NCBI RefSeq assembly: GCF_041276405.1
Contig: NZ_JBGGGT010000001.1
Span: 169,501-233,500, forward strand
Length of the DNA stretch: 64,000 nucleotides
From: Microvirga sp. TS319
GTDB lineage: Bacteria > Pseudomonadota > Alphaproteobacteria > Rhizobiales > Beijerinckiaceae
Direction of reading: 5' to 3'
Shown here: positions 36,827 to 61,197 of the stretch, one piece after another
How positions within the stretch are numbered: position 1 is the stretch's first letter
Layout: the number at the start of each line of letters is the position of its first letter
Program-made: the position numbers and the translations under genes
The notes under the pieces: generated by a model
Database searches by the model: none
What the model saw: only the letters and a program-made list of their open reading frames with translations
What the model was told of the DNA's origin: nothing

Positions 36827-38242
36827 TCAGAGGTAAAAATCGTCTTTGGAAAGCGTGGTCAGCCCGGTCACACTGACCGCAAAGTCGGCAATCTTGTCGC
36901 CATTCACATCCGCCGACAGCACGCCGCCGGCAAATTTGAGCTGCCCGGCGTGTCCGGAGAAGGCGGATTTTCCGATGAAGGTAAACGCCTGATCGCCGGT
37001 GATTTTGGTATTGGCATCGATGGCGCGCAGATCGATATGATCCTGGCCGCGCTTGAAATCGGTGATCCGGTCTCTGGACGCTGCCGGAGAATCGCTCAGG
37101 CTCAGGAAGATGAAGGCATCGGCGCCGCTGCCGCCGGTCAGAATGTCGCTTCCGCCCTGCCCGTAGAGCTTGTCGTTCCCGCTGCCTCCGGACAGGCGAT
37201 CATTCCCGTCGCGGCCAGAGAGCTGATCGTTTCCTGCGCCGCCTTGCAGCGAGTTGGCAGCGGCATTTCCCTTGATCACGTCGTTCCCCGAACCGCCCAG
37301 CGCATTCTCGATCAGGGAGCGCATATCGTTCCCGGACAAGAGCGCGTTGGCGATATTGCCGGCGGCGAGCTTCGTGCCGTTCCAGTTGAGCTTTGCAAGC
37401 TGTGCGCTCGACGTGATGGTCCATGCGCCTGGATTGAGATCGATCTTGAGTCCGGTCGTATACTGCCTGAAATCGTAGGTATCGGTCCCGCCGCCGTCCC
37501 AGACCGTCTCGAAAATCCGGTTGCCACCGGCGGTGCTTTGCAGGACGCCATTGACATAAGCGCGCCCGGCCGGAGTCCAGACATATGTCGTGTTGCCGCT
37601 GTTGGTCGCGTAGTTCGCGCCGTAGAGATATTGGATCGCCGCGATGTCATACATCATCAGCGATTGCGCATAGCCCCATGTCTCGTTCGTGTAGCCGGAC
37701 GACAGGGAGGCTCCGACATAGGAGCGATAGCTCATGACGGAGTATTCGATCGAATCCCGGCCAAGAGGCATCACAGTGCCCTCATGGGTGTGTTCCAACC
37801 CGAGGGCGTGGCCGAGCTCGTGAACGATGGTCGCGTAAGCGTAGTTTCCTTTCCGCGGGGTATCGTAGATGTGGCTCGAGCTGTTCAGCCAGACATCGCC
37901 GCCGGACTCCGCCTCCGTCGGAAAGTAGGCCCAGGCCGTGCTGGGGGCATCGGAACGCGCGAAGCGGATATCCGCGTGCTGGGAGGCCGTCTCCGACATT
38001 TCCTGAAAGGTCAGGTTGGCAACAGAGGCATAGAGCGTCAACGCGGCGCGCGCCGCCGGCTTCTGAGCACTCAGGAAGGCTCCAAAATTATCGTATAATT
38101 CGCCGTAGCCATAGGACGGCTCATAGAAGGTGGAAGAGGCTGGAAAGCTATAGGTAAAACTGTTGGTGCCCCATTTCGCTTCGCCTAGCAGAGCCCTGAT
38201 GTAGTTATTGCCGGAGCTGGTGATCGTGAGAGTAGAAGGCAT
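36827..38242 (-). CDS. Serralysin-like M10 metalloprotease with RTX repeats
   Basis: A 471-residue secreted zinc protease. The zinc site is HELGHALGLEH at 141-151 (His141, His145, His151, catalytic Glu142) and the Met-turn is SVMSYRSY. The C-terminal half has RTX nonapeptide repeats (GGAGNDQLSG, GGSGNDKLYG) that bind Ca2+. The end LSKDDFYL matches the type I secretion signal, with acidic residues followed by hydrophobics. There is no N-terminal signal peptide, which fits TolC-dependent type I export; no T1SS genes lie in the window. It is divergent from a LuxR regulator. Confidence 0.9.
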   Translation of the reverse strand: MPSTLTITSSGNNYIRALLGEAKWGTNSFTYSFPASSTFYEPSYGYGELYDNFGAFLSAQKPAARAALTLYASVANLTFQEMSETASQHADIRFARSDAPSTAWAYFPTEAESGGDVWLNSSSHIYDTPRKGNYAYATIVHELGHALGLEHTHEGTVMPLGRDSIEYSVMSYRSYVGASLSSGYTNETWGYAQSLMMYDIAAIQYLYGANYATNSGNTTYVWTPAGRAYVNGVLQSTAGGNRIFETVWDGGGTDTYDFRQYTTGLKIDLNPGAWTITSSAQLAKLNWNGTKLAAGNIANALLSGNDMRSLIENALGGSGNDVIKGNAAANSLQGGAGNDQLSGRDGNDRLSGGSGNDKLYGQGGSDILTGGSGADAFIFLSLSDSPAASRDRITDFKRGQDHIDLRAIDANTKITGDQAFTFIGKSAFSGHAGQLKFAGGVLSADVNGDKIADFAVSVTGLTTLSKDDFYL

Positions 38243-38599
38243 TGCGTCGTCGACCGGTCAAAGGAGGCCTGCTGCCGGATACGGAGCGGCCCGGAGTGAT
38301 ACGAAGTGCTCAGAAGCAGGCTTTCCGGCTGGGTGTGGCCGATCCGAGCGCAGCACCCCACCGCGGATCGGCTCGGCAGCCAAAATATCATGAAGGCACA
38401 TCGTGCCTGCCCCACGAAGCGCACCCAGGCTTACGTTCTATAATTCCCGAGCGTGAGAACTTTAGCCTAGAAAGTGGAATTTAAGAAGCGGTCTGCTTCA
38501 TGTTCGGCCCGTACCGGACACCATGTCGCAGAAATCGGCGCGGTGCCGGAAGAACCGGCTGCGAATCGTTCTAACGCCCACAGCTTGACGCAAGGATCA
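38243..38599. other. Intergenic region between protease and LuxR regulator
   Basis: 357 bp without a convincing gene. It carries the divergent promoters of the protease and the regulator. A stretch at 38392-38434 resembles 23540-23583 (both contain GAAGGCACATCGT and AGCGCACC), possibly a second weak dispersed motif. No lux-box palindrome was recognised. Confidence 0.5.
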
Positions 38600-39289
38600 A
38601 TGAATAAATTCAGTAGCGCTTACTGTAATATTGGTACATTAGACATGAAGTCCCGACAGCTTTTTCTTCATGCTGCCGAGCAATGGGTCAACCTGAAGCC
38701 GGCCTCTCATGTCGACGCATTCCCGCTCATGAAACAGCTTGAAGAGCTCTGCGACCCATCGACGAATCTCTACATCGTGGACATGCAGGGTGACGATCCT
38801 ATGAAGTATGCGCTTCACCGGATTGTGGAGAACGTCAATCTCCGGAGTTCCTCAACGTTGTTTGGCGACTATCCAGATCAAGCATACATGCGGAATGACG
38901 TTGCGCCTGCATACCAGGAATCTAAGGTATCGGGCGCGATCAGCAAAATGACCCTGACGTCCCGCATTCAGGACCAGATTGCCACTTACGATCGGGTGAT
39001 CCTCCCCGCCTTGCAGATCAACGGGGCCTCAGCGTTCGCCGTCACATTATCAAAGACCAGGATCCTGCTCCCCGTGGAGCGCAGGGTTCTCACCGGTCGC
39101 GATGAAGATGTTCTTGACCTCCTGGCACAGGGGTTCTCCTCAAAGGAGATCGCTCTCAAAACCAACGCGTCATTCCGCACCGTGGAACATCGCATTGCAT
39201 CGGTCAAAGCCAAGCTCCAGGCAAAAAACGTCACCCATGCCGTAGCGATCTGGATGTCACGGTTCCTCGGTGTCGAGGCGCGCCGCTAG
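38600..39289 (+). CDS. LuxR-type HTH transcriptional regulator
   Basis: About 229 residues from ATG 38600 (a second ATG lies at 38645, and an extended upstream frame reaches 38474). The C-terminal GerE/LuxR HTH is clear: LTGRDEDVLDLLAQGFSSKE, then NASFRTVEHRIASVKAKL. The N-terminal ~150 residues look PAS-like and lack the acyl-homoserine-lactone tryptophan/aspartate signature, so it is probably not a quorum sensor. It is divergent from the serralysin gene, a plausible target. Base composition looks lower in GC than the core genes, like the block that follows. Confidence 0.75.
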   Translation: MNKFSSAYCNIGTLDMKSRQLFLHAAEQWVNLKPASHVDAFPLMKQLEELCDPSTNLYIVDMQGDDPMKYALHRIVENVNLRSSSTLFGDYPDQAYMRNDVAPAYQESKVSGAISKMTLTSRIQDQIATYDRVILPALQINGASAFAVTLSKTRILLPVERRVLTGRDEDVLDLLAQGFSSKEIALKTNASFRTVEHRIASVKAKLQAKNVTHAVAIWMSRFLGVEARR

Positions 39290-39758: not shown

Positions 39759-40250
39759 ATGACTGACAGCAACACGACCAACGGCGCAAACGCAAGCGAT
39801 ATCCTGGATAAGTTCAAGACAGTGCCGGACGTCCGCAGCCGCGCTACCCTCGTGGTTCTCGCGGTCATTTCCATTTTCGCGCCGATTGTCTCAGCTGGTG
39901 CCTTCGGTATCAGTACTTCGTTGACGCTCGTGGATGTCTGGGGCGCGATGGCATTCCTTCTGCCGGCATGCGCGGGCTTGGTGCTGATCGCTCCGATCGT
40001 CCCTGCTCTCAGGAGCAATTGCCGCCTCATCGACCTTGTGAATGGTGGTGCCGCTGCTTTCGCAGCATTCATCATTGCCAAGAACATGCTCGAAGTTGGT
40101 GTCCAGCTCAATCGCTCCTACGGCGGCATCCGTGGCTCAGACTTCGGCTCCATGCTCCCAAGCTGGGGCATGATCTTCTTTGTGGTGTTTCTCATCATGG
40201 GCATCCGGCGCGGCCTGAAGGCACTCAAGGCGCGTCCGTCGATGGCCTAA
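39759..40250 (+). CDS. Hypothetical small membrane protein (accessory block gene 1)
   Basis: A 163-residue protein with four hydrophobic segments at about 29-48, 56-77, 94-110 and 133-150 (the last is MIFFVVFLIMGIRRG). A positively charged tail GLKALKARPSMA follows. The first ~25 residues are polar (MTDSNTTNGANASDILDKFK). No family was recognised. It opens a run of five same-strand genes of lower GC than the surroundings, all either exported or membrane-bound. It is unlike any neighbour outside this block. Confidence 0.7.
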   Translation: MTDSNTTNGANASDILDKFKTVPDVRSRATLVVLAVISIFAPIVSAGAFGISTSLTLVDVWGAMAFLLPACAGLVLIAPIVPALRSNCRLIDLVNGGAAAFAAFIIAKNMLEVGVQLNRSYGGIRGSDFGSMLPSWGMIFFVVFLIMGIRRGLKALKARPSMA

Positions 40251-40406
40251 GAGACAGAGGGGCGTTCCGTTAAGGTGGGATGCCTCTCTACCCTCGGCCA
40301 GGAGGAAATTTCGCGTCGAGAGAAATCAAAGGCTCGGGCTCTGCAAAGGCCGAGCGCAATCATCGGTCTACAACAATATTGGCAAATTGCGGGGGTAACA
40401 AACATC

Positions 40407-41213
40407 ATGCTCCGGACCATCACTGCCGTACTCATCCTGTCCACCTTAGGTGGAGCCGCACTGGCGCAAGATGCCGTCGTACCGAGCTACAGGACTGAAT
40501 CCTACAAGGTTGAGGGCCGGGCTCTCGACATCCTGGGATTCGAGCTTGGCAAGACGGCTGATGTCCTTATCGCAGAGCTCCAAAAGGAGTTCACGGGCGA
40601 CTACAACTCGGTTGAAGTCGAGAGTGCCATCCAGAGCTACTCCATCAAGGGTGTTGGCATCAGGTTGCCCGCAGCGCCCGCCGTAGCAAAAGCCTATCGG
40701 GCCAATCCCGAGACGCAGGAATTGAACCAGATTACTGTCATGTTCAGTGGTCCAGCCTCGAGCAGCACGGCTTACTATATGGTGAGGGAGGTGAACTATC
40801 GGGATCATCTCAAATCTCCAGCTGTGGATGTCGTGATCGAGCAACTGGAGGCGAAGTATGGGAAGCCGATTGAACCTGTCAGTAGCGGCTGGTCCAAAAA
40901 CAGATTTATGCGGTGGTCCTTCAAGAACCGACAGATCGTCTCGTGCAAGAACCTGTCTTGCGAGTGGAACCGCAGCATTGGCCAGCTCGGCTGGACCAAG
41001 ACTTACAAGCCGGAAACCGCGGTCGACTACGAAATTACAGCCTCGGTTGAGCCGAGTTACTCCGACGAGGCCAAGGCTTCAAAGATCGTCGTTTCAGTGA
41101 TCGACGTCCGCGCATTCGAGTCTGCATCCACAGCTGACCGCGCAGAGCTTCAGAAGCGTGCCCAGGCAGCGTACGACAAGGCGAACACCGCTGTCAGCGC
41201 ACCCAAGTTCTAA
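40407..41213 (+). CDS. Hypothetical secreted protein (accessory block gene 2)
   Basis: A 268-residue protein with signal peptide MLRTITAVLILSTLGGAALA (cleavage near residue 20). The mature part is polar, with DILGFELGKTADVLIAELQ and a single Cys pair region (IVSCKNLSCEWN). No family was recognised. ATG 40407 has GGGGG 12 nt upstream and places the signal peptide at the N-terminus; the longer frame upstream lacks support. Periplasmic location is inferred. It is the first of two exported proteins in the block. Confidence 0.72.
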   Translation: MLRTITAVLILSTLGGAALAQDAVVPSYRTESYKVEGRALDILGFELGKTADVLIAELQKEFTGDYNSVEVESAIQSYSIKGVGIRLPAAPAVAKAYRANPETQELNQITVMFSGPASSSTAYYMVREVNYRDHLKSPAVDVVIEQLEAKYGKPIEPVSSGWSKNRFMRWSFKNRQIVSCKNLSCEWNRSIGQLGWTKTYKPETAVDYEITASVEPSYSDEAKASKIVVSVIDVRAFESASTADRAELQKRAQAAYDKANTAVSAPKF

Positions 41214-41358
41214 TCCAAGTCCAGGCTGGGTGAGGCGGGGCACGGGGAGCCACCTATCCCGGCATCGTCGCGAGTAACTGAGATTGCTCATCTCGGGATC
41301 GCTACCCCTTGTTCCCCGGGTTACGCTCATTTGCAGATACGCTGTCGAGGCCAAGATC

Positions 41359-43155
41359 ATGTTCCTCATAAAACTGCTTCCAACCTGCCTCGTCGCTGCG
41401 GCTCTGGTGACCACTTCCGTCTTGGCCGACCCTCTGGAGGACTTGATGAGGGGTAACCTCATGAAGACCTACGATCTGCTGAAGCCCGGGGTGTATTCGG
41501 AGCCTCCCGTCGAGATGTGGAAGGATCTTATCGACAACGCCAATGCCGAACGCCAGAAAGCAGGGGGCGGCTCGACGGGCAACGGTCCAGTGCCGGGATA
41601 CGTGTTCAGCAAAGAGTTCAAGGAAGGCGACACGACCGTGATCGCGTCGATCTACCGGGCTTACGATTCTGCCTGCGATAACGGCCCGAATACGAGTACG
41701 AGCACACAATTCTGGGCCACCTGTCCCGCCCGGGTGAAGATCGTGGAGAGCGGCAGTACGCGCATTGTCGACGGCACGGTCTGCGTGACGACGGAAGGGG
41801 TTGGGCGGGAAGGCAAGCAGGAGTTGCAAAGAAACAACTTTGCCTTTCATATTCCCACGTTCGGTGTGTATTTCAACGTAACCGATCAGGGGAGCTTCGT
41901 TCCCGCCTGCACGAAGGAAGTCCGGTATGGGATCCCCCCAGAGCCGGAACCGAAGCTAATCGAGTTCAAGGAAATCGCACCGCCTCCGGCTGGGGCGGTC
42001 ACGGCCGTCTACTCCGACACCGAGGGAAAGAGCTGCAAACAGACGGTCAGCGCGGATGAGATGAGCGAGTGGATATGCTCCGCGCCGGGAGGTAGGGCCG
42101 TGCTGTTTGGTGACACGGGTGGCGCAATGGTGGTCCGCTTTGGCGAGACGACGAATACCACGTGGGAGCCGGAGTTCTGGCCAAGCAGAAACGGCATTGG
42201 CAAGAAGATCGAATGGCGCCTTCGCGACGGAAAACCATTTGCTTCGATCTTGAGGTTCTTCCTCGGCAATATTGATGGAAGAGATGCCGAAGTGCTGGCG
42301 GTCACGAAGGTGGACGGCAAAGACGCGTGCCACATGGCCTATGTGAACGCCCGTCTCAAGGACGCTAACAAGCAGGCGGCGGAGATCGCCGATACCAAGG
42401 CGCATGCGTTCAGGTGCGGTGTTCATGCGCCAATCAAGGTCGGCGGCGCCAAGTGGTACGGGGAGGAGTCCGTTACACTGGACGAGACGGCGGAGTACTT
42501 CGACATCACTGGCCTCCAGCCGGGTCAGGTCCTGCCCCTGCACCGTTATCCACCCCCGTCCTCTCCGAAGGTTGGCGAACTCCCGCATGATGCCAAGGGC
42601 CTCAAGAACTTCGGCTGCAACGCAGTCGACGGGAAGAAGGTCATCCCCGACGACGCGCAGCCCACCGCTGGACTTCCCCGCTTCTGCCAGGTCCGTACGC
42701 CCAAGCTGGACGGCTGGGTAGATTCCCGCTTCCTCGTGCCTGGTTCCAAGCCCCCGCCGGAGCTTTCGACCAATCTCTCGACCTATCCGGCTGATATCGT
42801 TGCGGTGATCAAGCCGAAGCTTGAGATGTGCGAGACGTTTCAGCTCGGGAATGATTTTGCGCGCAACGATATCGACCTGAACGGGGACGGCATCAAGGAT
42901 TGGATCATCGATTACGGCGGACTGCTGTGCAACGAATCCCACATCGCGTACAGCGGCAGCGCTGGCAGCCTCACGCAGATGCTGATCTCGACCGGGCCCG
43001 ACAAGTGGGTGATGAAATTCGAAGGCTATGCCCAGGCTTACAAAGTCGTGACCCGCGAGGGGAAGACCGTCATCTCCCTCGGACTCCACGGATCGGCCTG
43101 CAAGAAGGTTGGTGCGGCGGGTTGCACAAGGATGGTCGACTTCAACTCACCTTGA
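41359..43155 (+). CDS. Hypothetical secreted protein with SH3b-like domain (accessory block gene 3)
   Basis: A 598-residue exported protein, with signal peptide MFLIKLLPTCLVAAALVTTS and likely cleavage after VLA (residue 23). Around 380-459 a bacterial SH3-like segment is suggested by DITGLQPGQVLPLHRYP ... GELPHDAKGL ... RFCQVRTPKLDGWVDSRFLV, a pattern found in wall- or peptidoglycan-binding modules. Near 502-520 a calcium-loop-like DIDLNGDGIKDWIIDY occurs. It has several Cys pairs, consistent with periplasmic disulfides. The rest matches no family I know. ATG 41359 puts the signal peptide at the start. Confidence 0.75.
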   Translation: MFLIKLLPTCLVAAALVTTSVLADPLEDLMRGNLMKTYDLLKPGVYSEPPVEMWKDLIDNANAERQKAGGGSTGNGPVPGYVFSKEFKEGDTTVIASIYRAYDSACDNGPNTSTSTQFWATCPARVKIVESGSTRIVDGTVCVTTEGVGREGKQELQRNNFAFHIPTFGVYFNVTDQGSFVPACTKEVRYGIPPEPEPKLIEFKEIAPPPAGAVTAVYSDTEGKSCKQTVSADEMSEWICSAPGGRAVLFGDTGGAMVVRFGETTNTTWEPEFWPSRNGIGKKIEWRLRDGKPFASILRFFLGNIDGRDAEVLAVTKVDGKDACHMAYVNARLKDANKQAAEIADTKAHAFRCGVHAPIKVGGAKWYGEESVTLDETAEYFDITGLQPGQVLPLHRYPPPSSPKVGELPHDAKGLKNFGCNAVDGKKVIPDDAQPTAGLPRFCQVRTPKLDGWVDSRFLVPGSKPPPELSTNLSTYPADIVAVIKPKLEMCETFQLGNDFARNDIDLNGDGIKDWIIDYGGLLCNESHIAYSGSAGSLTQMLISTGPDKWVMKFEGYAQAYKVVTREGKTVISLGLHGSACKKVGAAGCTRMVDFNSP

Positions 43156-43237
43156 GGCGGTGCTCGCGTCATCGCCATCGTGCCTGGTTGCGCTGGGCCA
43201 GCTTGCTTCGACCATTGTATTGCGACGGTAACCGCCA

Positions 43238-44941
43238 ATGACTTCTCCTGCTGTCAAACTCGCCGAGTTTCCTCCTGACCTTTCCGAGGGGCCCCTGGCC
43301 CAAGAGCTCAGGGAAAAAGCTGAATTTATCGCCTTCATGGCCGATGCTGATCTTGGACCCAAACCGATCCGGTGGTTTCAAGGCGGGGAACGAACTGGAT
43401 ACTTCGAGGTCGAGAAGTCTCTGACAGTTCGCGTGGACTCCTCTGGCAGAACCCTGAAAGGATATGTCTCGTACGGCACGCTTGGCCGATCATCCTCGAC
43501 GTCCGCGGCCAGGCAGGAGGCCGAAGCCATTGCGGCAGCACTTGTCGCTTCCGACAGCATCAAGACCATCGTTCGGACCCAGCTTCTCGAAGCAGACCTG
43601 TTCAAGTCCTTGTGCGCCTCGGAGGAGGGAGAGATTGCGTTTCCGGCCGAGCGGGTCGTCTCATTCTCCCAATATAGCTGCGATCCTTGCGCCGGATCGG
43701 GCACCCTGATCTGCGGCGGCTGCAAAGGGAAGGGGAGCGTCTGGTGTTCCAGCTGCAGCGGCGGCACCATCTACTGCGGAACCTGCGCAGGATCGGGACG
43801 GTGTTTCGATGCCGGCAATCGCACCTACTACAATTGTCCGGTATGCATTGGTCGTGGCAGATTGACCTGCAATCATTGCCACGGCACGCAATGGCTTACA
43901 TGCCGCGGCTGCGGTGGCGGCGGAGAGATTCGCTGCAAGAGCTGCGGAGGCCATGGCGGCTTCACGGAGGAGTTCTCGGTCGGCGGCATCACCCGGTTTG
44001 AGACAACCTATAAATCGGTGCCGCTGGAGGATCTCCAAGGGCCCGCTTTCAAAGCCTGGGTCTCGAATGCGTTCCCAGGAGCGAGCGACGAGAGGTCGAA
44101 GGCTCTGCCGAAACCGTACTATAAATCCGATGTAAAGCGGGTCAGCGCCATATCAGGGCAGACGACATCATGCGTGGTAGATCTCCACGGCGAAGTCATG
44201 AGCGCAGTCGTCGAAGGACGGTTCGACGATTGCGAGGTGCTCGGCACCGCGTTGGTCCTAGACAAAATCAGCTTTCGGTTTGCGCCTTACCTAGACAAGA
44301 TCCTGACCGAGAAGGCCAACGAGGCACTGAGGGATGATCCGAATCTCAAGACGATCGCCGAGCGCGTCCAAAATGTCGGATTGCTCGACTTCGTACGCAA
44401 GGAGTTCGCGACCTCCAAAAAATTTGATGAAGCCCTGCTCGGCAGGGCTGTGGAGTTGGCTCACGGCGGCGTTAAAGCTGAAACGCTGAAGCCCTTTGCC
44501 ACAACCTATTCGCAGGTCAAAAAGACCTTCGCCCGCTCTCTTTGGATGAGGTCGTGGAAGACCTTCGCTCTCAGATCGATCCCGCTCGCCGCTCTCTTCA
44601 TATTCCTGAACGTTCCATATCGACTGCACAGTATATTTGACGAGGAATTCACCCTTGGTGAGACCGATGTCGCAGCGTCCATCCTGTTCGGAGTGCTTGC
44701 TGGTATCCCAACTCTTCTAGCGATGCTGTCCATTCGAAAGGGCATTATGGCGGAACTCGGCAAAAAAGCCCAGATGCCGGCCGGCTACAACAGCCTTTAC
44801 TTTATCGCCGCATGGGCGGCGATTTCGGTCGCCACGCTATTCGGATCGTTCTCGCCGATGCTTCAGGGCCCTGATCGAAGCGGCCAGTATCTGTCCAAGG
44901 CAGTCTTCTGGGCTGACGCGGCCCAAACTCCTCTCCCGTAA
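43238..44941 (+). CDS. Membrane protein with eight CxxC DnaJ-type zinc-finger motifs (accessory block gene 4)
   Basis: A 567-residue protein. Residues ~148-238 carry eight CxxC motifs, mostly CxxCxGxG-like (CDPCAGSG, CGGCKGKG, CSSCSGG, CGTCAGSG, CPVCIGRG, CNHCHG, CRGCGGGG, CKSCGGHG), twice the four of a DnaJ zinc domain, enough for up to four zinc ions. There is no J-domain HPD motif. Three hydrophobic helices lie near the C-terminus (about 443-462, 472-493 and 513-530). It is probably inner-membrane anchored with a cytoplasmic zinc module, possibly a chaperone-like or scaffold protein. It starts 83 nt after gene 3. Confidence 0.78.
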   Translation: MTSPAVKLAEFPPDLSEGPLAQELREKAEFIAFMADADLGPKPIRWFQGGERTGYFEVEKSLTVRVDSSGRTLKGYVSYGTLGRSSSTSAARQEAEAIAAALVASDSIKTIVRTQLLEADLFKSLCASEEGEIAFPAERVVSFSQYSCDPCAGSGTLICGGCKGKGSVWCSSCSGGTIYCGTCAGSGRCFDAGNRTYYNCPVCIGRGRLTCNHCHGTQWLTCRGCGGGGEIRCKSCGGHGGFTEEFSVGGITRFETTYKSVPLEDLQGPAFKAWVSNAFPGASDERSKALPKPYYKSDVKRVSAISGQTTSCVVDLHGEVMSAVVEGRFDDCEVLGTALVLDKISFRFAPYLDKILTEKANEALRDDPNLKTIAERVQNVGLLDFVRKEFATSKKFDEALLGRAVELAHGGVKAETLKPFATTYSQVKKTFARSLWMRSWKTFALRSIPLAALFIFLNVPYRLHSIFDEEFTLGETDVAASILFGVLAGIPTLLAMLSIRKGIMAELGKKAQMPAGYNSLYFIAAWAAISVATLFGSFSPMLQGPDRSGQYLSKAVFWADAAQTPLP

Positions 44942-44957
44942 ACTTCCGGCATCGGAC

Positions 44958-46655
44958 ATGTCCACTCTTGGTGATCGGCAGAAAGCTGACCCGGCCGTCC
45001 TGGAGCGGCGCTTCCCGGCATGGCCCTATTTCGTCATGCTCGTCGCCACAGGGCTTTACCTCTCGGTCGAGCTGCCCTTCGGAGCCCTGCTGATCGACGT
45101 TGTCGGGTCGGATGCGACCCAAGACCAGATCATTCGGTTGGAAACGACTGGACGGCTGATCGCAGGAACGGCCTTCGCGCTGGCTCTCATTGGACGGAAG
45201 CTGGTTACCTATATCGAAGCCAAGGTCGGTAAAGCTGCGATAATCGGCAAAATCTGCCTTGTTGCCTTGGTTGCCATCCCAGGCGCTTACTTCGTTCAGA
45301 AAGAGCTTGTCGAAGTTCTTGTCGAATATTCCAGTGCCGCAACGCGACAGGCGGCGGCGAGGGCCGTTCTGCTTCGCCGGGAGATTTTCTCAGGGGACCC
45401 TCGGATTGATGGGGTCAGCATCAGTGCCGAGGCTCTCAACGAACCGGACTGGAAGGCTTTCTCAGCCCTCGCTCCTCTGCTCGGCCTGTACTACCCTAAC
45501 GTCATATCGAAAACGGGCTCGGGCATGAGCACGCTTTTGAGAGGGGAGGTTGGTGATCAGCTTGGAGATCTGCCGACATTCAGGGCAAAAATCTTCGAGC
45601 CGGCGATGGACCAGGTCCGCGGGGCTTACGTCGAATATTTCAACGGCGCTAAGGCTTACCGCGAGGGCCTGGAGAGTTTGCCGGAACAGGCTCAGTCGAT
45701 GTGGGGAAGGTATCTCGAAACTCTCAGATCGCAAGGCTTGAGGTCGCGAAGCCAGATCTCCCGCTATGCGAGCTCCATCCGACAGAGCGTTCGGGACAGT
45801 GGCGTTCCGGTCAGCAAGAATTGGAATCCCTTGGATGAGCAAGGCTTCAGGAACGCTGCGCGTCAGAAAATCAAGAGCTCTCTTGATGCGGCCTACAAGT
45901 CGGCCGTCGAAGAGGCACTCGGTAAGGGGGCTAGCCTCCCGCATACCCTCAACTTCAAGGGCTTCCTGGAGCAATCGGCTGTCCAGGCAAAGATCAGGAG
46001 AGAGCTGTCTCTTCCTCGAAGCGGTCCTGTCATCACGGCTATCATCGAGGATCGGGACCTTGAGGAGCATGTGTACAAGCCCCTCCTGGAAAGCCGGCAC
46101 AAAAAGCTTGCGCAGGAGTATTTGCAGGATACGACTACGTTCGGCGATGGAGGATCCAATGAGGATATCGGCCGCAATGCCATGCGCGCTGTCGTCGTTC
46201 CTCCGATTGCCCTCGCATTTTCCCTGCTCGGCATGACCGTTCACATCTTCAAGTTCGCGAACTACCTGCTGCTCGCAGCTGCAGGGATCGGAGCCTTGAC
46301 GTCACCGAGGCTGGCGTTAATCGGCTCAAGGATCACCCGGTTTGTCGTGCTCGCGTTTCTGGCTGCCGGTATTGCTTGGTGGATCTACCAGCCTCAACGG
46401 GGAGTGACCGCTTCTCCCTTCTACCAGTTCGCAGAAACGGCGCTGGCTTCTGCAGTGCCCATGTTCCCGACCACCGTATTGACCCTTGTCATCGAGTCAC
46501 AGCGGAGCGTGTACGCCGTGAAGCATGGGCTCGGAGAAACGGGTGCATTCCCGATTCTTGCAAGATACGTTCAGCGGGGAGACATGCCGGTCGTTCTCCA
46601 GGCCATCCGGGATCAAATCCCTGGAATTTACCCCAGAAGGAGCAAATCGCTCTAA
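44958..46655 (+). CDS. Hypothetical large membrane protein (accessory block gene 5)
   Basis: A 565-residue protein. Three hydrophobic segments lie in the first 115 residues (PYFVMLVATGLYLSVELPF, LIAGTAFALALIG, GKICLVALVAIPGAYFV). A long, charged, helical middle (about 120-405) follows, with a C-terminal pair of hydrophobic regions (AVVVPPIALAFSLLGMTVHI and FVVLAFLAAGIAWWIYQ). No family was recognised. It starts 17 nt after the zinc-finger gene, so those two are probably co-transcribed. The helical middle could face the periplasm or cytoplasm; topology is not settled. Confidence 0.75.
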   Translation: MSTLGDRQKADPAVLERRFPAWPYFVMLVATGLYLSVELPFGALLIDVVGSDATQDQIIRLETTGRLIAGTAFALALIGRKLVTYIEAKVGKAAIIGKICLVALVAIPGAYFVQKELVEVLVEYSSAATRQAAARAVLLRREIFSGDPRIDGVSISAEALNEPDWKAFSALAPLLGLYYPNVISKTGSGMSTLLRGEVGDQLGDLPTFRAKIFEPAMDQVRGAYVEYFNGAKAYREGLESLPEQAQSMWGRYLETLRSQGLRSRSQISRYASSIRQSVRDSGVPVSKNWNPLDEQGFRNAARQKIKSSLDAAYKSAVEEALGKGASLPHTLNFKGFLEQSAVQAKIRRELSLPRSGPVITAIIEDRDLEEHVYKPLLESRHKKLAQEYLQDTTTFGDGGSNEDIGRNAMRAVVVPPIALAFSLLGMTVHIFKFANYLLLAAAGIGALTSPRLALIGSRITRFVVLAFLAAGIAWWIYQPQRGVTASPFYQFAETALASAVPMFPTTVLTLVIESQRSVYAVKHGLGETGAFPILARYVQRGDMPVVLQAIRDQIPGIYPRRSKSL

Positions 46656-47059
46656 GCCGGAAACTCCACCGCCCGCTCCAAATTTCATTTACGAGTTGCA
46701 AAGTCTTGCAAGGATTGGATCGCTCGGACCGTGCCATGCAGAGTCCGGGTGATACAACGCCGATACAACAACCCCTTTCAACGGCACTCGAATCGCTGCA
46801 TCAATCCGTCCTTGATGATCGTAGTTTGAGAAGGACCGATAGGGACTCTCGTAGCGTCCTTTTCCATAACCCCTACTGCTCGTCTTTGGCGTATATTTGG
46901 TAACCTGTGGGGGAGGGCATGCGGTCTGTTCCTGGGTTTCTGCCGTCTAGAGCATCGTGCGAAGAAGTGGGAACCGGTTCTTCGCGAAAAACGATGCTTC
47001 GCCAAAGAGAAAGAGCAAGCATTCTGATCCCGTTAGAATGCAATTTGCTCTGGGCACGC
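46656..47059. other. Intergenic region after the accessory block
   Basis: About 400 bp with no supported gene. It holds a dispersed repeat (46948-47000) directly before a methyltransferase remnant. The left half looks like ordinary low-complexity intergenic sequence; no terminator with a clear T-tract was found. Confidence 0.5.
46948..47000. repeat. Dispersed palindromic repeat, copy 5
   Basis: TAGAGCATCG at 46948 to ACGATGCTT at 46999, with AAGTGGGAACCGGTTCTTCGC inside. It lies just upstream of the truncated methyltransferase, where the missing N-terminal coding part should be. Confidence 0.82.
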
Positions 47060-47428
47060 AGCGCACCTCATGGACCGTTCGATGCGGCGACATGCCTCCT
47101 GACCTTGCATTTCGTTCCTGCCGAAGAGCGCCTGCGCACCTTGTCGGAGGTCGGCAAGCGCCTGAAGCCCGGTGCACCCTTTGGCGTTGCGCACCACAGT
47201 TCCCCTCAGGAGGAAAAAGCGCTCTGGTTGGGACGCTATGCGGCTTTTGCATCGTTCTCGGGTATTCCTGCCGAGAAGGCTGAGGCCGCGGCCGCCGAGA
47301 TCGGTCACCGGCTGCCGGTGCTCTCGCCTGACCAGGACGAGGCCTTGATGCGCGAGGCCGGCTTCTCGGATGTCAGTCTCATTTGTGCCGGGTTCACCGT
47401 CCGGGGCTGGGTCGCCTGCAGGCGGTGA
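47060..47428 (+). pseudogene. 5'-truncated SAM-dependent methyltransferase remnant
   Basis: About 122 codons match the C-terminal half of a class I methyltransferase: GPFDAATCLLTLHFVPAEER, EVGKRLKPGAPFGVAHHS and PVLSPDQDEALMREAGFSDV through FRGW-like VRGWVACRR. The SAM-binding glycine motif (motif I) and the whole N-terminal half are absent, and the upstream sequence is the repeat at 46948-47000. A start codon upstream would give only unrelated residues, so this is probably a gene fragment. Confidence 0.65.
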
Positions 47429-60926: not shown

Positions 60927-60977
60927 GGAGACCTCCTGCTCGCCCCGCCGGCAAGCAATACGGGTTGCGTTCTCGAC

Positions 60978-61164
60978 GCCGGCCGGTCTCCTGGCTTGCG
61001 GGTCATCGCGAGCAATCCGCCTTCCCAAATCCTCTTGCGCTTGTCGCGCCCGAGGGTTCGGTGGCATGAAGGATTGCCGCTTACCGCTCACAGTTGCGGG
61101 GGCAGCCACGGATTAGGACCAGGTCCGCACCGTGTTCCCGTTTCACCTCACGATGTGAGGCACC
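60978..61164 (-). promoter_or_regulatory. Cobalamin riboswitch
   Basis: On the minus strand the leader of btuB starts GGTGCC, then GGGAACACGGTGCGGAC, AATCCGTGGCTGCCCCCGCA, ACTGTGAGCGG, and later AGCCAGGAGACCGGCC. These are the conserved B12-box elements of the AdoCbl riboswitch class. It ends 52 nt before the btuB start and would lower btuB expression when cobalamin is present. The 5' end lies only 34 bp from the divergent btuF start. Confidence 0.93.
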
Positions 61165-61197
61165 AACGTCGGATCCTCTCTTACGAGCTTGCCCGTT

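Follow-up and report, generated by a model that had tools for sequence, protein, structure and literature searches.

An accessory envelope gene block of Microvirga sp. TS319, partly shared within its genus, includes a member of an undescribed membrane-protein family

The 64,000-nucleotide stretch of Microvirga sp. TS319 analysed here (contig NZ_JBGGGT010000001.1, positions 169,501 to 233,500; hereafter the window) belongs to a genome of 6.26 Mb in two contigs. Five open reading frames (ORFs) on the same strand, which we call g1 to g5, fill positions 39759-46655 of the window. Our results partly support the view that they form a real accessory block of envelope genes, shared in part with congeners, and that the membrane protein encoded by g5 is its most interesting component. 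Judged from its sequence, g5 is a member of an undescribed membrane-protein family, widespread but sparse, that is unnamed in the libraries we searched. This family recurs with the same kinds of partners from Alphaproteobacteria to plasmids of Salmonella and Aeromonas. The original prediction described five genes of no recognised family as a candidate for one undescribed system. No significant family was indeed found for g1 to g5 in Pfam, NCBIfam, PADLOC or PHROGs (the queries for g2 and g3 started one codon ahead of the ATG), but the scattered presence of the genes over 48 genomes of the genus does not support one fixed five-gene system. We assign the block to no known kind, and we do not claim a new mechanism as proven.

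The gene g5 (44958-46655, + strand) encodes a predicted inner-membrane protein of 565 residues, with about three transmembrane (TM) segments, a long helical middle and two to three further TM segments. Hydropathy alone counts six segments, and the model is almost wholly helical, with a mean predicted local distance difference test score (pLDDT) of 79, in keeping with the large membrane protein with a long helical middle that had been announced. A fold search returned no clear solved relative, which is not evidence of a new fold. In the protein database, where here and below the 8000 best candidates were scored, g5 has six relatives at E ≤ 1.9e-40 (61% and about 30% identity), none of them functionally named, and a 17-row alignment used as query retrieved no further ones. 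The closest relative, P0003, is encoded on an 8070-bp contig from a metagenome and shares 61% identity with g5 in the database search and 59% in the alignment; the other rows share 18-35%. None of the 17 family members has a significant match in Pfam, NCBIfam or PADLOC, the best PADLOC value being E = 0.031 for one member. The ratio of non-synonymous to synonymous substitution rates (dN/dS) of g5 is 0.53, a value computed against distant relatives only that says little.

The family is found on plasmids and chromosomes. A tblastn search matched 12 of 72,556 plasmid records, from Methylorubrum, Salmonella, Azospirillum, Acetobacter, Rhizobium, Neptuniibacter, Aeromonas and Pseudoalteromonas. The 17-member profile, which includes g5 and matches it at E = 5.2e-188, detected the family in 8 of 398 genomes of Pseudomonadota (our own included) and, in another family, in 11 of 197 genomes, of which two had been known before. 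With a single family member as query, 6 of 385 genomes of the class matched, our own included and two of them weakly. When g5 or the first alignment was used, the only match among 199 genomes of the family, and among 297 of the order, was the source genome itself (G000). Scans of genome contigs seeded by exact patterns, with g5 and with query A1, gave no confirmed relative; this is probably a limit of such seeding, because the other genome search did find relatives. The Salmonella pair had no match in E. coli genomes. A phage origin was considered and rejected: the Azospirillum member matched none of 50,697 phage records, PHROGs gave nothing significant, and a scan of viral contigs with query A1 left none confirmed. 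Genes resembling metal-efflux genes, as judged by eye, stand beside two g5 relatives (L120, 9849-13009; L122, 10303-16515).

We analysed the neighbourhood of g5 at 33 loci: the window, 10 of the 12 plasmid records (H5 and H9 were left out), 3 of the 5 other genomes from the class search (the G685 locus, L029, holds no g5 by the profile, and G764 was left out), the 8 loci that the profile found in Pseudomonadota outside the source genome and 11 further loci from the search of the other family. Where ORFs overlap, the ORF picker retains the longer one, and genes may escape it; the g5 of L026 and L028 was missed in this way and counted otherwise, and L056 terminates within g5 at the end of its contig. 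A secreted partner adjoins g5 at 25 of the 33 loci. It is a GDPD-family phosphodiesterase at 14 loci, a small lipoprotein at 11 (one locus has both) and a protein of the g2 family at one.

The GDPD gene is adjacent or fused to g5 in L023, L036, L024, L050, L051, L053, L055, L056 and L114-L119, the fusion being that of Azospirillum (L024), where the domain lies behind g5. PF03009 was identified by Pfam in L024, L050, L053 and L055 and by annotation in L023 and L036, while the others were recognised by a GDPD profile built from the proteins of L023, L024, L050, L053 and L055. A lipobox pattern occurs at 9 of the 14 loci. The HRG...E.D...HD motif, which we take to be catalytic in GDPD, is kept in 12 of the 14 proteins (11 by pattern and L056 by eye). 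Non-adjacent GDPD genes were absent from the ORFs picked at the g5 loci, and the GDPD profile found none at 13 control loci lacking g5 (224 kb, mostly from other lineages). The small lipoprotein or secreted gene lies directly upstream of g5 in L017, L019, L020, L021, L022, L024, L027, L028, L052, L120 and L121 (for L022, L024, L027, L028 and L052 the lipobox was assessed by eye), and several of these lipoproteins are mutually related. The third kind of partner was seen in L026, from a distant alphaproteobacterium, where a g2-family gene stands directly upstream of the g5 homologue and overlaps its start. Its product was detected by the g2 profile at E = 2e-5 among 735 proteins; it scored 19.8 bits, and none of the 499 shuffles reported out of 1000 exceeded 4.2 bits. 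By eye, an M10-like gene was also seen near this g5 relative. Other enzymes occur in the vicinity of the family: the gene 64 bp downstream of the g5 relative in L052 carries a Lipase_3 domain, and the second gene downstream in L023 belongs to the nucleotide pyrophosphatase family. In L050 (5763-7513) and L114-L119, three mostly helical-looking proteins of about 90-127, 340 and 148 residues precede GDPD and g5, and two of the three do so in L051. The trio proteins tested had no significant Pfam match; the smallest keeps W..L...Y.G.GA in five aligned loci, which by eye recalls WXG-type proteins.

The other genes of the block have relatives within the genus. We searched 48 Microvirga genomes, the source genome included, and found matches to g1 in 4, to g2 in 4, to g3 or pieces of it in 17, to g4 in 6 (in 3 of these through its cysteine-rich segment only) and to g5 in 1. 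No genome other than the source has all five genes together. Two congeners nevertheless keep several of them in close proximity. In G199 (L082), a LuxR-type regulator (82% amino acid identity), a weakly DUF4870-like gene, g1 (36%) and a full-length g3 (80%) lie inside 6 kb; the DNA match continues past g3 and the gap behind it, covers about 150 bp of g4 and then breaks. The DNA upstream of g3 aligns poorly. No g2 was found in this genome. In G229 (L031), the regulator (55%), a relative of the same small gene, g1, g2, the middle domain of g3 and a C-terminal g4 remnant of 102 residues (57%) lie inside about 6 kb. Because parts of the block co-locate in both genomes, the regulator, g1, g2, g3 and g4 most likely share a history, whether they were inherited or transferred jointly. 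The arrangement looks like an ancestral, decaying unit of regulator, g1, sometimes g2, g3 and g4, and g4, as read from its remnants, is decaying in both congeners. The estimated dN/dS values, 0.16 for g3 (against G199) and 0.11 for the regulator, show that these two genes are under purifying selection. A weaker link comes from G224, where a full-length g4 (28%) and pieces of g3 are 13-18 kb apart on one contig; in G212, g1 and one g3 piece are on different contigs. The small membrane gene beside g1 in the two congeners (L082, 11798-12202, - strand; L031, 7041-7436, - strand; 51% mutual identity) has a DUF4870 match below cut-off in one case and none in the other, and was not found in the window.

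This regulator belongs to the block as its sixth member. It is encoded at 38645-39289 (+ strand; the ORF can also be listed from an upstream GTG at 38474), in what had been described as a gene-poor strip, a description that does not hold. Its GerE helix-turn-helix matches PF00196 at E = 8.2e-11, with 41.8 bits against a curated cut-off of 23.5, as expected of LuxR/GerE regulators; it differs in that no autoinducer-binding domain was reported by Pfam in the N-terminal part. The identities with G199 and G229 correspond to 176 of 214 and 115 of 210 positions, and in both genomes the gene is beside relatives of g1 and g3. On the Methylorubrum extorquens AM1 megaplasmid (L018, 15010-16558), a LuxR-type gene followed by an autoinducer-synthase-like gene, both judged by eye, is about 3.5 kb away from the g5 relative.

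The products of g1 to g4 bear out the predicted mixture of secreted, membrane and zinc-module proteins. The first, g1 (39759-40250, + strand), encodes a small membrane protein of 163 residues with three to four predicted TM segments: the four segments originally proposed are seen in the G199 homologue, while g1 itself shows three. Its homologues in G199 and in G229 (33%) are beside the regulator, and that of G212 (44%) has no other block genes nearby. Signal-like segments begin both g2 and g3, as had been noted. The former (about 40407-41213, + strand) encodes an exported protein of 268 residues with family members in L030, L031 and L032 in addition to L026; its single-sequence structure model (pLDDT 33) is not usable. 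The latter (about 41359-43155, + strand) encodes a large exported protein of about 598 residues made of an N-terminal domain, a middle domain (about 207-355) and an SH3b-like segment with a C-terminal domain (about 377-597). These modules also occur as separate pieces in other congeners. In the congener G225, the match to g3 begins at a coordinate identical to that in plasmid pMVF16-3 of Microvirga sp. VF16. The SH3b-like segment of the original prediction finds no SH3 match by Pfam in g3 itself, but it does in a relative of the 377-597 region from Microvirga sp. VF16 (L033, 40% identical; SH3_3, E = 1.5e-7). The likeness to bacterial SH3 domain proteins (PF08239) is thus through this relative, and g3 differs from them in being a multi-module, exported protein that as a whole lacks a significant Pfam match.

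The g4 protein (43238-44941, + strand; 567 residues) has eight CxxC motifs in its N-terminal part, confirming the earlier count, six of them CxxCxGxG by eye, followed by C-terminal TM segments (two by hydropathy, and three in each of two homologues scanned). The N-terminal part has the look of the cysteine-rich domain of DnaJ/Hsp40, which we take PF00684 to represent. The best solved structures for the family profile, both with marginal scores, were 1exk, which is this domain, at E = 0.022 and BSD2 at E = 0.028; searches of solved structures with g2, g3 and g5 gave nothing significant. In contrast to DnaJ, g4 has no Pfam match, no J domain reported by Pfam at E up to 1, and TM segments at its C-terminus. 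Full-length relatives are those of G224 (L083) and of a Rhizobium plasmid (L034, 22%). The latter is the only one of 15 matching plasmid records that covers most of g4, the others matching mainly the cysteine-rich part. The protein database returned only g4 itself. Its dN/dS (0.63) was obtained against distant relatives only and says little.

Taken together, we tentatively favour, at somewhat less than an even chance, the reading that the block forms an accessory module of the envelope. Its g5 protein would keep secreted partners at the inner membrane, and the purpose might be to turn over phosphodiesters or lipids. The linkage of the genes is observed, their function an inference. The block would probably be under the control of its own LuxR-type regulator. 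The g5 protein may span the inner membrane several times, with both its long helical middle and its C-terminus on the periplasmic side; a periplasmic C-terminus is suggested by the C-terminal GDPD fusion and by the members annotated with PEGA (L021 and L023). The helical domain could then dock or position an exported partner, which in relatives would be a small lipoprotein or a GDPD-family phosphodiesterase, mostly with a lipobox, and here g2 and g3. The zinc ribbons of g4 would face the cytoplasm, anchored through its C-terminal segments, and g1 may serve as a small subunit in the membrane. Together they would probably maintain the envelope locally. Our best single guess is glycerophosphodiester or lipid turnover, since the enzymes found next to g5 relatives are phosphodiesterases and, in one case, a lipase. 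In its boldest form, the proposal makes g5 a new class of inner-membrane organiser, found sparsely in Pseudomonadota on both chromosomes and plasmids, which keeps a secreted partner, in many cases a GDPD lipoprotein, at the membrane's periplasmic face. The Microvirga block would then be a regulated variant, in which exported proteins of several modules and a membrane protein with zinc ribbons take the place of the enzyme. This we consider possible, with the balance leaning against it. If g5 does position exported proteins, phosphodiesterases or others, a layer of envelope maintenance that has so far escaped notice would come to light, and since operons of the family occur in easily grown bacteria, the idea is testable.

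Several observations weigh against this reading. GDPD is an adjacent or fused partner of the family elsewhere, but g5 itself has no GDPD match, PF03009 is absent from g1-g5 by Pfam, and the GDPD profile finds none among the ORFs picked between 30000 and 58000 of the window. The lipid link hence rests on distant relatives (18-35% identity), as the block has neither GDPD nor any other enzyme. The 14 GDPD loci are non-independent: eight are from one family (L050, L051, L114-L119) and two from one genus (L023 and L036), leaving about six independent occurrences, and the control loci come mostly from other lineages than the GDPD loci. The motif is lost in L118 and L119, and GDPDs also occur in the cytoplasm. 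No direct secreted partner of these kinds was found at 8 of the 33 loci (the window, L018, L025, L054, L057, L122, L123 and L124); in the window the direct neighbour is g4, with the exported g2 and g3 beyond it. For the topology, the only sources are hydropathy, the helices of the model and the fusions. Finally, the tie of g5 to g1-g4 consists of adjacency and the g2-g5 pair of L026, with g5 in no congener, and it could be recent because g4 and g5 are together in no other genome examined.

These last points lead to the alternative that the region is simply decaying, with the regulator and g1-g4 as a dying module and g5 as an unrelated newcomer beside g4, without joint function. We take this as a serious possibility, albeit one that we would not expect to prevail. 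It accounts for the presence of g5 in a single genome of the genus, the broken g4 of G199 and G229, the g1 of G212 without block partners and the pieces of g3 elsewhere in many congeners. It also fits the different database records of the two neighbours, g4 having no relative there whereas g5 has a 61% one on an 8-kb contig, and the fact that, among the matches listed, block relatives in G199 and G229 are not on the left-flank contigs. Yet all six frames are open here, g4 and g5 are separated by only 16 bp, and the genes have similarly low guanine-cytosine (GC) content; the pair in L026 also argues against it, as does the fact that g3 and the regulator are under purifying selection.

A joint function could be of another kind. 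The genes might encode a signal-transduction or stress-sensing complex, in which g5 with g2 and g3 senses the state of the envelope and signals it to the LuxR regulator by way of g4. Three genomes have this regulator in the block, the zinc ribbons and TM segments of g4 would fit a redox or metal sensor, and both the metal-efflux-like genes of L120 and L122 and the LuxR-type gene of L018 point the same way; however, Pfam reported no kinase, phosphatase or cyclase domain in g1-g5, and we find this reading unlikely. We see very little chance that g5 and a secreted or lipidated partner form a conflict or anti-phage module acting against invaders or rivals. Such a role would explain the plasmid spread and the patchy presence of the family (the 12 plasmid records and the accessory frequencies of 8 in 398 and 11 in 197 genomes, own or seed genomes included). 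As to its neighbours, CRISPR I-F and methyltransferase genes occur close to a relative from Acetobacter, a gene annotated as DndB close to one from Aeromonas, and a NERD protein near L054. Against it, the neighbours seen vary among plasmids (no systematic scan of them for defence genes was made), the Azospirillum member is unmatched in phage records, and a defence module recognisable by PADLOC is rejected, with no significant match for the five genes or the 17 family members. The suggested link to defence thus finds no support in PADLOC. As to secretion, conjugation genes are near two plasmid-borne g5 relatives (L017 and L021, on Salmonella and Neptuniibacter plasmids), and a VirB cluster is near a relative of one g3 domain (L037).

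The layout of the block agrees with what had been predicted, i.e. short gaps between the last genes and a lower GC content than the flanks. With the starts chosen, the gaps are about 156 bp (g1-g2), about 145 bp (g2-g3), 82 bp (g3-g4) and 16 bp (g4-g5). The GC content is 56.0-59.6% for g1-g5 and 55.3% for the regulator, against 59.3% (serralysin) to 69.8% in six flanking genes measured. Promoter and terminator scans gave no signal above shuffles. Weak family matches (Flavi_NS4A, ACP_syn_III, Inh, TelA, MerC and others) were taken as chance, since all had E > 0.001 and those of Pfam were under cut-off. A literature search by title, with subscription journals mostly outside its scope, found nothing on these proteins. 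Among the matches listed, the left flank (34.0-38.2 kb of the window) is broadly collinear in G199, G219 and G224 and only to about 36.8 kb in G229, the block relatives in G199 and G229 are on contigs other than the left-flank one, the right-flank genes are on yet others, and no clean empty site was found in congeners.

The flanks contain a few further features. A serralysin-like RTX metallopeptidase (PF08548) is encoded at 36827-38242 (- strand), with related DNA beside the left flank in congeners. On the other side, a probable pseudogene at 47059-47428 (+ strand) is, by eye, a C-terminal fragment of a SAM-dependent methyltransferase. Two short sequences are apparently dispersed repeats of the genus, judging from their copies among the matches listed: 50373-50540 matches dozens of places in congeners at 71-94% identity, and 48904-48998 matches 14. 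Farther away, a cobalamin riboswitch lies at 60964-61182 (- strand; 123.8 bits).

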